From contig JAKSIF010000006.1 in NCBI GenBank assembly GCA_024398965.1, positions 1 through 64,000 on the forward strand: 64,000 nucleotides of DNA, written 5' to 3'. This document shows positions 8,858-46,930 of the stretch, piece by piece. The notes below the pieces were generated by a model, which saw only the letters and a list, made by a program, of their open reading frames with translations, searched no databases and was not told the origin of the DNA. This DNA is from Fibrobacter sp. GTDB lineage: Bacteria; Fibrobacterota; Fibrobacteria; Fibrobacterales; Fibrobacteraceae. A program made the position numbers and the translations under genes. Numbering within the stretch: position 1 is the first letter of the stretch; each line of letters begins with the position of its first letter.

Positions 8858-8863
8858 TATATT
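8858..8863 (+). promoter_or_regulatory. TATATT box directly before the GH9 gene
   Basis: TATATT ends 6 nt before ATG 8870. The upstream terminator ends at 8786, so the promoter must lie in this 80-nt gap, and the spacing would put the transcription start at or next to the start codon. Confidence 0.4.
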
Positions 8864-8869
8864 CTGGAC

Positions 8870-10657
8870 ATGATGAATCGTAACTCTGCTTTTAGCAAGG
8901 TGGCTTTGTCCGCCCCTCTTATGCTCCTGGCCACCAGTGCCTTTGCTGTTCCCCTTTTCAACCAGGTGGGTTATACTCCCGAGTCCGAAAAACAGATTGT
9001 AATTCCGGGTAGTGACGCCAACCCGCTGGAAATCCGTGACCTTAACGGAAAGACTGTGCTGAAGCTTGATGCTCCCATGGTCTATGACTGGGAATTTAGC
9101 GGTGAGGAAGTCCAGACTTACGATATTTCCGCTTTGAAGACTCCCGGCACCTACCGCATTTATCGTGACGGCTATATGGCGGCTCCCATCGTAATTTCAA
9201 AGAATGCCTACGAGGACGTGACCAAGGCTGCGCTGAAGTGGTTCTACTACCAGCGTGCAAGCATGCCTCTGGAAACCCAGTATGCAGGCAAGTGGGCCCG
9301 TTCTGCAGGCCATATGGATGACCAGGTGATTGTCTACGGTACAGACGCTGCAACTGCTCCCGGCTACGAGAAGGCTACTGGTAAGCCTGCCCCCAAGACG
9401 GACAAACCGCAGGTGATCAAGTCTGACCGCGGTTGGTACGACGCCGGTGACTACGGCAAGTACATCGTGAACTCCGGCATTACCGTGTTCACCTTGCTGG
9501 ATCTCTATGAACGTTTCCCGAAGTTCGGCGACACCCTGAAGTGGAACATTCCCCAGGAATTCAAGAAGTACCCGCAGCTTCTTGAGGAAATCCGCTACAA
9601 TCTTGACTGGATGCTGACCATGCAGGATTCCGATGGCGGTGTTTACCATAAGGTGACCACCTTGAAGTTCAGCGGTTCCGTGATGCCTGAGATGGATGGC
9701 GCCGCCCGCTATGCCATCATCAAGAACGTTACCGCCACTCTGGACTTTGCCGGCGTCATGGCCCAGGCTTCCGTGATTTACAAGAAGAAGGATGCCGCCT
9801 ATGCCAAGAAGATGCTGGACGCAGCCGAAAAGGCTTATGCCTGGGCAAAGGAACATCCTACGGAATTCTACAAGCAGCCCGAGGACGTACAGACCGGTAA
9901 CTACATGCATGGTGGCGAAGACGGTAAGGATGAATTCCGCTTTGCCGCTGCAGAACTTTATCGCGCAACCAAGAAGGCCATGTATCTTGACGAGTTCAAG
10001 ACCAACGCCTTTAACGCCAATGGTCCCTGGTGGGGCGACATGAACATGATTGCCGCCTTCCGCGTGGCAACCGAGGCAAAGCTTTTTGGCAAGGAACTTT
10101 CCGAGACCGCCAAGAGTGTTGTGATGAACGAGGCCAACAATCTCCGTGCCATTGGCGATACCAGCGCCTACCGCCTGCCTATGAACAAGTGGAACTGGAA
10201 CTGGGGCAGCAACAGCGCTGTGGCCAACAACGGTATTGTCCTTCTTTACGCCTACTATATGACCGGCGACAAGAGTTACGTGGATGGCGCCCAGCAGGCC
10301 CTGGACTATCTCCTGGGTAAGAATCCCATGGAAATCAGCTATGTGACCGGCTTTGGCTACAGAAGTGTCCGTAACCCCCATCATCGTCCCAGCGAATCCG
10401 ACATGGTAGACGATCCGGTACCGGGCATGTTGGCTGGTGGCCCCCATCTTGGCAAGCAGGATATTAACCTGGATGGCAAGGAACTTTGGAAGTGCCCCAA
10501 CTATGCTGCCGCTGATAAGGAAGCCTTGGCCTACATCGATGACCGTTGCAGCTACGCTACCAACGAAGTGGCTATTAACTGGAATGCTCCCTTGGCTTAC
10601 TTGGCTGGCGCCTTGCAGGCAATTTACAATGGACACAAACCGGTAGTTTCTAAGTAA
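8870..10657 (+). CDS. Secreted GH9 glycoside hydrolase (endoglucanase/cellulase)
   Basis: 595 residues. A Sec signal peptide ends at about ATSAFA. An N-terminal Ig-like CelD_N domain (VPLFNQVGYTPESEKQ, about 25-110) precedes the (alpha/alpha)6 GH9 barrel. Catalytic elements are visible: D191 and D194 in WYDAGDYGKY (water-activating base), the histidine motif SVRNPHHRPS, and E566 as the general acid in YATNEVAINWNAP. It probably cleaves beta-1,4-glucan. No carbohydrate-binding module and no type IX sorting domain follow the catalytic domain, unlike in the GH127 next door. Start: ATG 8870 or 8873; the open frame further upstream runs through the terminator and is not coding. There is no recognisable RBS. 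Confidence 0.94.
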   Translation: MMNRNSAFSKVALSAPLMLLATSAFAVPLFNQVGYTPESEKQIVIPGSDANPLEIRDLNGKTVLKLDAPMVYDWEFSGEEVQTYDISALKTPGTYRIYRDGYMAAPIVISKNAYEDVTKAALKWFYYQRASMPLETQYAGKWARSAGHMDDQVIVYGTDAATAPGYEKATGKPAPKTDKPQVIKSDRGWYDAGDYGKYIVNSGITVFTLLDLYERFPKFGDTLKWNIPQEFKKYPQLLEEIRYNLDWMLTMQDSDGGVYHKVTTLKFSGSVMPEMDGAARYAIIKNVTATLDFAGVMAQASVIYKKKDAAYAKKMLDAAEKAYAWAKEHPTEFYKQPEDVQTGNYMHGGEDGKDEFRFAAAELYRATKKAMYLDEFKTNAFNANGPWWGDMNMIAAFRVATEAKLFGKELSETAKSVVMNEANNLRAIGDTSAYRLPMNKWNWNWGSNSAVANNGIVLLYAYYMTGDKSYVDGAQQALDYLLGKNPMEISYVTGFGYRSVRNPHHRPSESDMVDDPVPGMLAGGPHLGKQDINLDGKELWKCPNYAAADKEALAYIDDRCSYATNEVAINWNAPLAYLAGALQAIYNGHKPVVSK

Positions 10658-17215: not shown

Positions 17216-17399
17216 GATGAACAAGTTAGAAATTTTGAAACTGAGTCGCAAGGCGGTTCATAGGAAGAACAAATGATTCGTGTTTTGGTAGGGTTGATTC
17301 GTCGTCAAAAGATTGTCGTTCGTCAAAATGATGTAAGTAAATATTAGACAAAAAAAAGTTTTATTACTATTTTTGGCACCAAATTCAAAGGAGAAGATT

Positions 17400-18029: not shown

Positions 18030-18035
18030 TATATT
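18030..18035 (+). promoter_or_regulatory. TATATT box at the start of the macro-domain gene
   Basis: TATATT ends 6 nt before ATG 18042, only 36 nt after the upstream terminator. This is the same spacing as at the GH9 gene and would give a leaderless transcript. Confidence 0.4.
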
Positions 18036-18041
18036 ATGGTC

Positions 18042-19139
18042 ATGGCATTCAAGATTATTCGAAACGATATTACCAAGGTTAAGGCCGATGTCATTGTGAA
18101 CTCGGCTAACACGAAACCCATTTGCGCTGGCTACCGTACCGATGCAGCCATTTACGAGGCTGCCGGTTACGATGAGATGCTTGCTGCCCGTCAAAAGATT
18201 GGTGACATCCAGGTGGGCCACGCCGAAGTTACCCCGGCATTCAAGCTTCCGGCCAAGTATGTCATCCACACGGTGGGTCCCAAGTGGATCGATGGTAATT
18301 CCGGCGAGCCCGAGGCCTTGCGCAGTTGCTATCGTGAATGTCTTACCAAGGCTGTTGCGCTTAGGGCAAAGTCCATTGCCTTTCCGCTGATTTCTACGGG
18401 AGCCTTCAAGTATCCCAAGGACCAGGCGCTGGATATTGTTACCGAGATTGCCAAGGAATTCACCAGCGAGCACAAGCTGGATGTGATTCTTGTTGTTTAT
18501 GACGAAGAGTCCTTTGGCTTGACTTCGGAACTGTCCGATTTTGTGAGTGCCTATATCGATGAGCATTATGTAGGCAAGGTTACCGAAAAGCGCTTGAAAA
18601 TGTACAGCGACATGAATTCCCCGGAGGAGGAACGCTGGCAGTGGCGTGGTGAAAGTTCTTTGAACAGACGTAGCCCGGTGTTAGAAGCCGCCTGCGAGAA
18701 TGAAGATTGTCTTGTTGAAGATCGTCCAAACGCTAAGGCCTATGTTTCTTTTGTCGGTAAGTTGGAGGAAGATCTTGATAAAAAAGTCAGGGAATTTGAA
18801 GTGCCGACATTCGGACAGCGTTTGGCGTATTACCTTCACAAAAAGAAACTTGAATCAACAATGGTCTATAACGCAGTGTTCATGGATCGCAAGCATTTTT
18901 CGAAGTTGTTGAGTGATAAAATCAAGAATCCTAGGCGAGGAACTATTTTGGCTCTTGCTATTGGTATGAAACTGACCGTTACTGAGACGAAGGATTTACT
19001 TTCTCACGCGGAGTACTCCTTTAATCCTCAAGTTAATTTGACTGATACAATCGTTGAAGCGTTCATTGAGCAAAAAGTCTACGATATCATTCGAATAAAC
19101 TATTCGCTTTCACTGCATAAACTACCTCAACTTGGTTAA
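18042..19139 (+). CDS. Macro-domain (ADP-ribose-binding) protein with C-terminal helical domain
   Basis: 365 residues. The N-terminal ~175 residues are a macro domain: FKIIRNDITKVKADVIVNSAN, a variant glycine loop (PICAGYRTDAAIYEAAG), YVIHTVGPKW, and the phosphate loop FPLISTGAFKYP. Such domains bind or remove ADP-ribose from proteins or nucleic acids. The C-terminal ~120 residues (FGQRLAYYLHKKKL, DRKHFSKLLSDK, TILALAIGMKLTVTETKDLL) resemble a Cro/CI-like helix-turn-helix. The same macro/VWA association is familiar from Firmicutes. Base use in the second half is more AT-rich than in the first. An alternative start lies two codons upstream at 18036. Confidence 0.85.
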   Translation: MAFKIIRNDITKVKADVIVNSANTKPICAGYRTDAAIYEAAGYDEMLAARQKIGDIQVGHAEVTPAFKLPAKYVIHTVGPKWIDGNSGEPEALRSCYRECLTKAVALRAKSIAFPLISTGAFKYPKDQALDIVTEIAKEFTSEHKLDVILVVYDEESFGLTSELSDFVSAYIDEHYVGKVTEKRLKMYSDMNSPEEERWQWRGESSLNRRSPVLEAACENEDCLVEDRPNAKAYVSFVGKLEEDLDKKVREFEVPTFGQRLAYYLHKKKLESTMVYNAVFMDRKHFSKLLSDKIKNPRRGTILALAIGMKLTVTETKDLLSHAEYSFNPQVNLTDTIVEAFIEQKVYDIIRINYSLSLHKLPQLG

Positions 19140-25169: not shown

Positions 25170-26024
25170 TTACTCGCCCTGAACGCAACGGACGTTGTAG
25201 CCGCGTTCGGACATTGCGTGGAACTCGTATTCCTTTGTTCCGTCGTCGGCGTAGTTCTTCAACTGGACGTACTTGTTGTCGGCAACCCAAAGGTAACCCA
25301 GCTTCTTGTCGTCGCCGAATTCGGTTATTTCGCCGTTTTCAAGTTTGAAGCGACCGCCGAAATTCCACCATTTCCATTCCTGGCTCTCGATTGCGGCTTC
25401 GAACTCTGCTTCGGTAGGCAGACGCCAGCCATCGGGGCATGCCTTGAGGGCTCCAGAATAGCTGTAGTAACCGCCGTAGGTTGCGCACATGTCGTCACTA
25501 CCGCTGCCGGAGCAGTAATATCCGCCCTTGACTGCGTAGTTGATGTTCTGTGCCATCCACTTCTTGCCGGCAATGTCAACAAGGGGGTAGCTCTTCTGGT
25601 CGCGCTGGTCGAGCATCTGGTTGCCATTGATCACAGGAGGTGTCGGCTGGCTTGAGCTCATGTTGATGTCTATGCTTGCTATAGAAGAGGAACTTGCGGG
25701 TGCCTGGACCGCCTCGCAGGGTTCGTTCCAGCAGAAAACGCCGCTACTGTAGTTCGGAGTCTCGTAGGAACCGGCGCTGTTGATGACCACCTGTGTGTGA
25801 ATGGTGTCATGAACTACGCCTCCGGTGCCATTGTCGACGGAACCAGAAGGCTTTGCCGCGGAGGACGAGGACCTCTTGACTGAAGATGAAGACGAAGGTG
25901 AGTTACCCGCGTCCGAGGAAATTGCCACACTGGTGTCATCCGGCGCAGAAAGAGTTGCTGTGTCGGAGCATCCTGAAAGGCACACTACACCCACTAATCC
26001 CAAAAATGCAGTGATCTTTTTCAT
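25170..26024 (-). CDS. Lipoprotein with Fibrobacter succinogenes major paralogous domain
   Basis: 284 residues. A lipobox (CLSG-Cys at about 19) is followed by a Ser-rich linker with runs of serine, then about 135 residues of the domain so abundant in Fibrobacter (TIGR02145): KKWMAQNINYAV, paired cysteines, ACPDGWRLPTEAEFEAAI, GYLWVAD, GYNVRCVQGE. Function is unknown; family members are surface-exposed and expanded in this genus. The gene diverges from nuoA. On the minus strand a TATATT box (26032-26037) sits only 7 nt before the ATG. Confidence 0.92.
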   Translation of the reverse strand: MKKITAFLGLVGVVCLSGCSDTATLSAPDDTSVAISSDAGNSPSSSSSVKRSSSSAAKPSGSVDNGTGGVVHDTIHTQVVINSAGSYETPNYSSGVFCWNEPCEAVQAPASSSSIASIDINMSSSQPTPPVINGNQMLDQRDQKSYPLVDIAGKKWMAQNINYAVKGGYYCSGSGSDDMCATYGGYYSYSGALKACPDGWRLPTEAEFEAAIESQEWKWWNFGGRFKLENGEITEFGDDKKLGYLWVADNKYVQLKNYADDGTKEYEFHAMSERGYNVRCVQGE

Positions 26025-26046: not shown

Positions 26047-26092
26047 TCTTTTTTGCACTTGCAAAAAGTTTTTTACTATCTTTTTCGTCACT

Positions 26093-26485
26093 ATGACGAA
26101 CGTTGAAATTTTCGACACCACCTTTGCTATGACCATTTTGGTCATTATGGCTCTTTGCATCCCCACCATCCTGCTCCTTGCCAACTGGATTCTTCATCCG
26201 GGCAAGATCAAGGATACCTCCATCAAGGGTACTTCCTACGAAAGTGGTATCGCCCATGTTGCCGGTACCTCCAACGAACGTTACCCGGTTAAGTACTACA
26301 TGGTGGCAATGCTGTTCCTGGTGTTCGACCTTGAAGTAGCGTTCCTCTACCCCTGGACCATCCAGTTCCTCGCTGGTGGCTGGGAACTTCTCTATGTGCT
26401 TTTGGCATTCCTGGTTATCCTCGAAGCCGGCTACTGCTACCTGATGAAGAAGGGTGTCCTCAACTGGACCCGCGTTCAGGACTAG
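26093..26485 (+). CDS. nuoA: NADH-quinone oxidoreductase subunit A, isolated
   Basis: 130 residues. Three membrane helices and the family core YPVKYYMVAMLFLVFDLEVAFLYPW (abridged: FDLEVAFLYPW) identify the complex I subunit A, part of the membrane arm near the quinone site. The usual YECG motif reads YESG, so the conserved loop cysteine is a serine. Complex I genes normally run A-B-C-D onward, but here no other nuo gene follows and a terminator comes 30 nt after the stop. The promoter area has TATCTT at 26077-26082, 10 nt before the ATG. Confidence 0.9.
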   Translation: MTNVEIFDTTFAMTILVIMALCIPTILLLANWILHPGKIKDTSIKGTSYESGIAHVAGTSNERYPVKYYMVAMLFLVFDLEVAFLYPWTIQFLAGGWELLYVLLAFLVILEAGYCYLMKKGVLNWTRVQD

Positions 26486-26564: not shown

Positions 26565-27746
26565 TTAGAATGCCTGGCGGATGTAGACCGTCAGTGCCAG
26601 ATGCTCGTTGTCGATCCAGGAGAATTCGCCTCGGGCGTAAAGGCTTTCCTTGAGGTTCAGGGCCAGTTCGCCTCCGAACCCGATGGCTCGGTGCCACTGA
26701 TTTCGGAGCAGTTCGCTGAAGTGGTCTCCGACCTTTCCGCCTTCGAAGAAGATGTCTCCGGCCAGTCTCCAGAACAGGACCTTTCTCAGTTCCGCCTGCA
26801 AAATCAGGGATTGATTGTCGCGGAAGTAAAGACTTTCCACACCGCGGAACCTCTTGACTCCGTCGGGCCCGGACAGTTTATCGAAGGGGGTGTCGCCGCT
26901 GGTGCGCTGCCACAGGGCGCCTACGGCCATGGAAGTCTTCCAGAACAGATAGGTGTAACCTCGCAGGTCCAGGGTCTCGGTCTGGTAGCTGTAGTCGCCG
27001 ATCAGGTCACTGTAGAACATCTGCTGCCATTGCAGCAGGAACCCGTGGCGGGCCCAGTTCTTGTTGTCGCGGGTGTCGTAGGCCAGCAGGTAGCCAAGTC
27101 CGTTACGGAAGCCGGAATTTGCGTCGGGGGCGGCAATGTTGTTTGTTACTTTATCTGCACTCTCGTCAAGGAGGTAGGTGCCGTCGAGGTCTTTGGGGTC
27201 GCCCTGGTCGTCACGAACGCCTTTGCTGTCGGACTTGCCGCTTCGGAAGCTGATGTCGGCGTATTCCAGGTCTATTTCCATGCCGTACTTGAAACCCTTG
27301 GGAAGGATTTCGGAAATACCCAGGTTGGACTCCAGTTCAAGGCCTACGTTAAGCTTTTGGCGGTCGAAGAGAATGTATTCGTCGAAGTCCGGATTGTTCC
27401 CCATGCCGAAGTAGCTTGCCACCCAGTCCTGGTAACGCAGATTGAACCAGCCACTGACCTGGTCGTGCATCAGGTAGAAGTAAGGCGTGAACATGAAGCT
27501 GTATTGACCGCGGCTGGTACCCTGGACGGAAATGTCTATCTCGGGGACTTCTCCGCCGGGAGCTTCGGGCCGGAAGAACACCAGCGCCATGGCTCCGTAC
27601 TGCAGCTTGGTTTCCTCGGAATACCCCAGGATAGGCAGCGCCGAGAACCTTTGGAATCCGTCGTCTTTCGCGGATGTGGAGTCGGCTGCGGCCGCCACCC
27701 CTGCCAGGGCGAGAATAGCTGCATGTAAGCACGGGGACAATTTCAT
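26565..27746 (-). CDS. Omp85/BamA-type surface-antigen beta-barrel protein
   Basis: 393 residues. A signal peptide (to about AAAAD) is followed by alternating beta strands. GLGYLLAYDTRDNKNW and LRGYTYLF, and KRFRGVESLYFRDNQSLILQAELRK, match the bacterial surface antigen (D15) barrel domain, and the protein ends in Phe as outer-membrane barrels do. POTRA domains are absent, unlike BamA (about 800 residues), so it is a small member that may act with a partner or alone as an outer-membrane pore or lipid-handling protein. A minus-strand TATATT (27755-27760) lies 8 nt before the start. It is divergent from prs. Confidence 0.82.
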   Translation of the reverse strand: MKLSPCLHAAILALAGVAAAADSTSAKDDGFQRFSALPILGYSEETKLQYGAMALVFFRPEAPGGEVPEIDISVQGTSRGQYSFMFTPYFYLMHDQVSGWFNLRYQDWVASYFGMGNNPDFDEYILFDRQKLNVGLELESNLGISEILPKGFKYGMEIDLEYADISFRSGKSDSKGVRDDQGDPKDLDGTYLLDESADKVTNNIAAPDANSGFRNGLGYLLAYDTRDNKNWARHGFLLQWQQMFYSDLIGDYSYQTETLDLRGYTYLFWKTSMAVGALWQRTSGDTPFDKLSGPDGVKRFRGVESLYFRDNQSLILQAELRKVLFWRLAGDIFFEGGKVGDHFSELLRNQWHRAIGFGGELALNLKESLYARGEFSWIDNEHLALTVYIRQAF

Positions 27747-36976: not shown

Positions 36977-37007
36977 AGCTAAAATCTAGAAATTTTGGGG
37001 GTACCCC

Positions 37008-46886: not shown

Positions 46887-46930
46887 ATAAGGAAAATAGC
46901 AAACTGGAAATGAGGCGGAAGCCATTATCT

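Follow-up and report, generated by a model that had tools for sequence, protein, structure and literature searches.

Boxes and start codons in the window

The window, a 64,000-nucleotide stretch of a contig from Fibrobacter sp., contains genes whose start codons are closely preceded by a hexamer of the TAnnTT type. Four of these, for which an earlier note had pointed to the exact word TATATT, are arranged with their boxes as follows:

8858-8863, + strand: TATATT box of the GH9 gene, 6 nt before ATG 8870
8870..10657, + strand: GH9 glycosyl hydrolase gene (Pfam PF00759), predicted leaderless, without an SD-like word at 3-13 nt
18030-18035, + strand: TATATT box of the macro-domain gene, 6 nt before ATG 18042
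18042..19139, + strand: macro-domain protein gene (Pfam PF01661; NCBIfam matches from residue 1-2), predicted leaderless
26037-26032, - strand: TATATT box of the lipoprotein gene, 7 nt before ATG 26024
25170..26024, - strand: FISUMP-domain lipoprotein gene (NCBIfam TIGR02145, Pfam PF09603), predicted leaderless
27760-27755, - strand: TATATT box of the Omp85-like gene, 8 nt before ATG 27746
26565..27746, - strand: Omp85-like gene (Pfam PF01103), predicted nearly leaderless

All four boxes were recovered with exactly the spacers given for them (6, 6, 7 and 8 nt), and the reported lack of a Shine-Dalgarno (SD) sequence at the four genes also holds: GGAG, AGGA, GAGG and AAGG are absent 3-13 nt upstream of their starts. 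Four further boxes of the wider type are seen in the window:

17223..17228, - strand: TAACTT box of rpe, 7 nt before ATG 17215
26077..26082, + strand: TATCTT box of the gene divergent from the lipoprotein gene, 10 nt before its start at 26093
36983..36988, - strand: TAGATT box of a PBP1A-type gene (NCBIfam TIGR02074 match, under the curated cut-off of that model), 6 nt before ATG 36976
46893..46898, - strand: TATTTT box, 6 nt before ATG 46886

SD-like words at 3-13 nt are missing in 8/8 window genes examined, a count that is partly built in, as a spacer of 6-7 nt leaves little room for them. The box is also present together with a leader at eno, the ABC gene and the kinase gene, as had been noted. 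In total the window has 31 copies of TATATT, as against a mean of 12.9 over 100 shuffles, none of which reaches 31 (largest 22).

The significance of these spacers depends on the correct identification of the start codons. A rival reading accepts the box as a -10 element yet sets the true start codon at a later position, giving the mRNA an ordinary leader. Start calls are indeed imperfect: the gene caller set the start of the Omp85-like gene at 27590, within the gene; we prefer ATG 27746, because the signal peptide opens there. By visual inspection, the signal peptide of the GH9 protein likewise opens at the box-adjacent ATG, as do the signal peptide and lipobox of the lipoprotein, whose start and box are kept together in 25/25 loci. 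The macro-domain start aligns with those of its orthologs, with family matches beginning at protein residue 1-2, and the Pfam PF00834 match of rpe (ribulose-phosphate epimerase) begins at residue 5, which is profile position 2. A second in-frame ATG of the macro gene lies at 18036, immediately after the box; the ATG at 18042 is the one common to five close loci (own locus included). Together with the fixed distance between ATG and box in orthologs (see below), these observations make a downstream start extremely unlikely; such starts, which the earlier note had named as an outcome that would speak against its reading, are excluded for most of the named genes by the evidence at the macro, lipoprotein, GH9 and Omp85-like genes.

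It had further been proposed that an upstream terminator or a divergent gene limits where a promoter could be placed. A terminator scan found one before the macro gene and none before GH9; upstream of GH9, however, the sequence leading up to a T run has a folding energy of -27.6 kcal/mol (z -4.7). What looks by eye like a terminator of the preceding gene, a GC-rich inverted repeat and T run, abuts the box in four GH9 orthologs (L262, L264, L270 and L273), in the place of a -35 element. The divergent neighbor of the lipoprotein gene is real, with ATG 26024 and ATG 26093 (+) 68 nt apart. Each of these starts has its own TAnnTT box (at 7 nt and 10 nt, respectively), an arrangement which would pack two promoters and two start codons into a very short stretch.

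Distance, frequency and placement of the box across the genome

In the 3,588,035 bases of the genome TATATT-N6-ATG occurs 79 times, as against 12 for the reversed pattern and 20 for TATATT-N14-ATG; TATATT-N6-GTG has no excess, and GTG starts are very few. Our survey of starts took in 864 kb, or 24% of the genome, made up of the window and 40 stretches of 20 kb from the same genome; a gene caller that relied on coding statistics and ignored upstream sequence found 600 genes there. The histogram of distances between TATATT and starts, which the earlier note had suggested as a check, shows a sharp peak 6-7 nt before starts: TATATT ends there in 21/599 genes, where 1.5 are expected from its density at 12-99 nt (Poisson p 2e-17), and the end-to-start counts are one at 0-5 nt and 27 at 6-10 nt. 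A mixture model with three classes of start (no signal, an 8-mer box, or SD), applied to 594 starts, assigned the box cTAtaTTT to 21% and the SD aAGGag to 57%. Box EM from random start values returned the same T-rich core, shifted two positions. A stricter estimate, using a fixed matrix at >5 bits with the more distant background subtracted, gives a box excess of 11% of starts; thus, the share of gene starts with the box is roughly 11-21%.

The window supplied 50 of the 594 model genes and just 7 of the 101 confident box calls, the other 544 genes giving 94; the effect is therefore independent of the window that raised it. Exact TATATT accounts for 27/101 confident boxes, and the hexamer originally noticed is therefore one member of a wider TAnnTT class. 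The start codon is ATG in 99/101 box genes and in 285/289 SD genes. The 16S gene runs off the end of its contig, with model positions 9-873 matched, and the anti-SD tail pattern gave a single match, with one mismatch, at an apparently unrelated place.

Base composition offers a trivial explanation, namely that AT-rich intergenic DNA yields TATATT near starts by chance, and the upstream regions are indeed 61% A+T. The peak, on the other hand, is position-specific relative to the same regions further upstream; the likelihood gain from the box on the 238 non-SD starts is 217 log units, as against ≤44 in 20 dinucleotide shuffles; and the N6 spacing outnumbers N14 in 94/94 family genomes sampled. 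The probability of a chance origin is practically nil.

The placement of confident boxes follows gene arrangement: they precede 44/164 divergent genes, 30/180 genes with a co-directional neighbor at least 80 nt upstream, 19/86 of those with one at 25-80 nt, and 8/164 of those with one at <25 nt. Put differently, the box is found in 93/430 genes with an upstream region of their own versus the 8/164 that follow a co-directional neighbor at <25 nt (p 2e-7): it marks genes needing their own promoter, either single or first in an operon. This distribution bears on a second rival proposal, under which the box is an AT-rich translation signal (for ribosomal protein S1 or Kozak-like, as discussed for Bacteroidota) and transcription starts well upstream. 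Bacteroidota, which belong to the same wider group, lack SDs and are described as using AT-rich upstream regions (PMC9581028, PMC5397173). Yet tightly packed downstream genes, in which the box is rare, also require translation; the TA..TT core is sharp and at a fixed distance, rather than a diffuse AT bias; the same hexamer class is found 18-84 nt upstream of SD genes; and the genome has clear SDs at the above-stated 57% of starts. A translation signal is thus very unlikely.

The base directly before the start codon is informative with regard to the site of transcription initiation. Bacterial RNA polymerase usually prefers to start at a purine (+1) that follows a pyrimidine (-1). With a spacing of 6 nt, C or T directly precedes the ATG in 30/32 genes, and with 7 nt in 30/37 (together 60/69); the comparison sets show this in 156/289 SD genes and in 16/30 box genes with a spacing of 8-10 nt. 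This pyrimidine excess at 6-7 nt is as expected if the A of the ATG is +1. An independent ruler is provided by the mapped starts of Flavobacterium psychrophilum, whose sigma-A box TAnnTTTG is reported at -12 to -5 (PMC9723704): by this measure TAnnTT followed by 6 nt places +1 on the A of the ATG.

No -35 element is visible in 69 aligned leaderless-type boxes, nor in 82 leadered-type boxes: upstream of the -10 the logo has no signal for a TTGACA-like hexamer at a distance of 16-18 nt, and none was found at GH9. At the macro gene the one + strand match ends in TATGGT, overlapping the box by a single base. The Bacteroidota sigma-A promoter class features TTTG at -33, and there is no such upstream signal in the 69 aligned Fibrobacter boxes. 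These have only a T/A-rich stretch, mostly ending in a pyrimidine just before the TA. With no visible -35, the promoter would therefore consist of just the -10 and the T-rich sequence flanking it. A sigma region 3 search of the genome recovered one sigma factor of 293 aa (L223) with regions 1.2, 2, 3 and 4; residues 36-284 of this short, primary-type factor best match solved SigA/RpoD chains, and region 1.1 was not matched in it.

Conservation of the box among orthologs and across the phylum

Counts for the lipoprotein, GH9, macro and mutL genes include the own locus in each case; for those of exact TATATT only an in-frame ATG with the hexamer at 5-8 nt was accepted, and misses stay in the denominators. 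At the lipoprotein gene, whose FISUMP domains (NCBIfam TIGR02145, Pfam PF09603) suggest Fibrobacter as the source and are matched at many places per genome, TATATT is kept in all 25 loci across 34-100% protein identity, 23 of them at 7 nt and two at 6 nt. GH9 retains TATATT-N6-ATG in 19/25 loci; the remaining six have TATCTT or TATTTT at 8-10 nt (four loci) or are missing the box (two). For the Omp85-like gene TAnnTT at 5-11 nt is found in 17/30 relatives, a count partly limited by uncertain starts.

Of 30 macro loci inspected, the five of the close group (L103-L107) all have TATATT at 6 nt, and most of the 25 outside it are distant or paralogous and without the box. In two relatives, L122 and L123, TATATT stands ahead of a leader that carries an SD of AGGAGG or CGGAGG type, whereas the close orthologs look leaderless. 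The macro gene thus shows an apparent switch of initiation mode between relatives, from leaderless to SD-led or the reverse. A box with leader and SD is also what one would see with a promoter independent of leader length.

mutL shows TATATT-N6-ATG in 21/30 loci of the genus. Beyond the genus TAnnTT is present at 6-9 nt in 17/20 genes from 12 other genera of the family, order and class (by eye; one before GTG), the exceptions being CATATT at 6 nt in L175, TTTATT at 7 nt in L177 and no box in L182. The other nine genus loci form one group (L094-L102) with TACATA 11 nt before the ATG and the SD also absent; these possibly have a leader of about 5 nt.

Across the phylum, we compared matches to TATATT-N6-ATG and TATATT-N14-ATG in 150 genomes. 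The former prevail in the genus (5608 versus 1698; higher in 67/67 genomes), in other genera of the family (2784 versus 913; 27/27) and in the f3 genomes (217 versus 72; 10/10), with a smaller ratio in the f9 genomes (1696 versus 1136; 23/24); in the f5 genome the counts are 96 versus 109 (higher in 0/1). Outside the family, where it is strong, the box signal extends to part of the class; further out it is weak or absent. When EM was run de novo on 110-137 genes from each of four other genomes, the motifs were unstable, a sign of overfitting, and the fixed box matrix was used instead: in G032, of the same family, it found 11 matches versus 7.6 expected in 137 genes, and in two f9 genomes no excess.

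Probable leaderless initiation and its relation to known systems

The above observations are very probably explained by a sigma-A -10 element that abuts the start codon and gives rise to mRNAs that are leaderless or nearly so. The housekeeping RNA polymerase would use the box (consensus cTAtaTTT, core TAnnTT) as its -10 element: with a spacer of 6-7 nt the A of the ATG would be +1 and the mRNA leaderless, and with 8-10 nt a leader of about 1-3 nt would result. Translation would then proceed by recognition of the 5'-terminal AUG in place of an SD. The original suggestion of TATATT as a -10 next to the ATG is thus supported by the promoter-like placement, the -1 pyrimidine and the conserved spacing, which add to the observed box and its enrichment; from these we infer promoter activity, the exact +1 and, with the leaderless step, the mode of translation. 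We count against the -10 reading the absence of a visible -35, the mutL group L094-L102, the six GH9 loci of 25, the 17/30 for Omp85, G032, the two f9 genomes and the 8/164 packed genes.

It is reasonably likely that Fibrobacteraceae are a further lineage in which leaderless expression is a principal mode. For as many as one in five starts the promoter would then consist of a -10 joined directly to the ATG and would lack a -35, in some cases with the terminator T run of the gene before immediately next to it; individual genes would switch between leaderless and SD-led forms from species to species. This would extend large-scale leaderless expression to a phylum for which we found no report of it. 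As a practical consequence, SD-based gene finders can misplace starts in Fibrobacter, a cellulose- and fiber-degrading group of importance. Moreover, leaderless mRNAs are described as reacting differently to some antibiotics (PMC9581028), and a gene that switches between the two modes would allow a direct test of how initiation modes evolve.

In the literature searched, supplementary files aside, no report of leaderless genes in Fibrobacterota was found, and Fibrobacter is unmentioned in the main texts of both a study of leaderless genes (PMC3160421) and a scan of the bacterial domain (PMC12340547). Related arrangements, though unusual, are known elsewhere. The so-called TA-led genes of many bacteria are marked by a TANNNT box some 12 bp ahead of the start, and are described as exceeding 20% in Actinobacteria and Deinococcus-Thermus (Zheng et al. 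2011, PMC3160421). Their defining features are found here too: a position-specific -10-like box ~10-12 bp upstream, no SD, and genes that are single or first in an operon. Both combine a sigma-70 -10-like box without SD with SD-led genes in one genome; they differ in that the Fibrobacter box is TAnnTT(T), and that of the TA-led genes TAnnnT/TAtaaT (PMC3160421). In Deinococcus-Thermus a -10 motif abutting the ORF is reported to drive leaderless mRNA by experiment, at about 30% of ORFs (PMC12340547). The putative -10 box, predicted here from sequence, adjoins the ORF in Fibrobacter as well, in another phylum and with another consensus.

With the Bacteroidota sigma-A promoters the Fibrobacter boxes share the TAnnTTT core and the predicted distance to +1; unlike the former (-7 box TAnnTTTG), they do not conserve the final G (0.30), and only 5.5% of the examined mRNAs of Flavobacterium psychrophilum are reported to be leaderless (PMC9723704). 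Furthermore, Bacteroidota are without SDs, whereas the Fibrobacter genome has them at more than half of its starts (57%), which fits the weak but detectable SD logo described for Fibrobacteres (PMC3155529). Taken together, this kind of leaderless gene is known in bacteria, and the Fibrobacter group appears to be a new and well-supported case of it.
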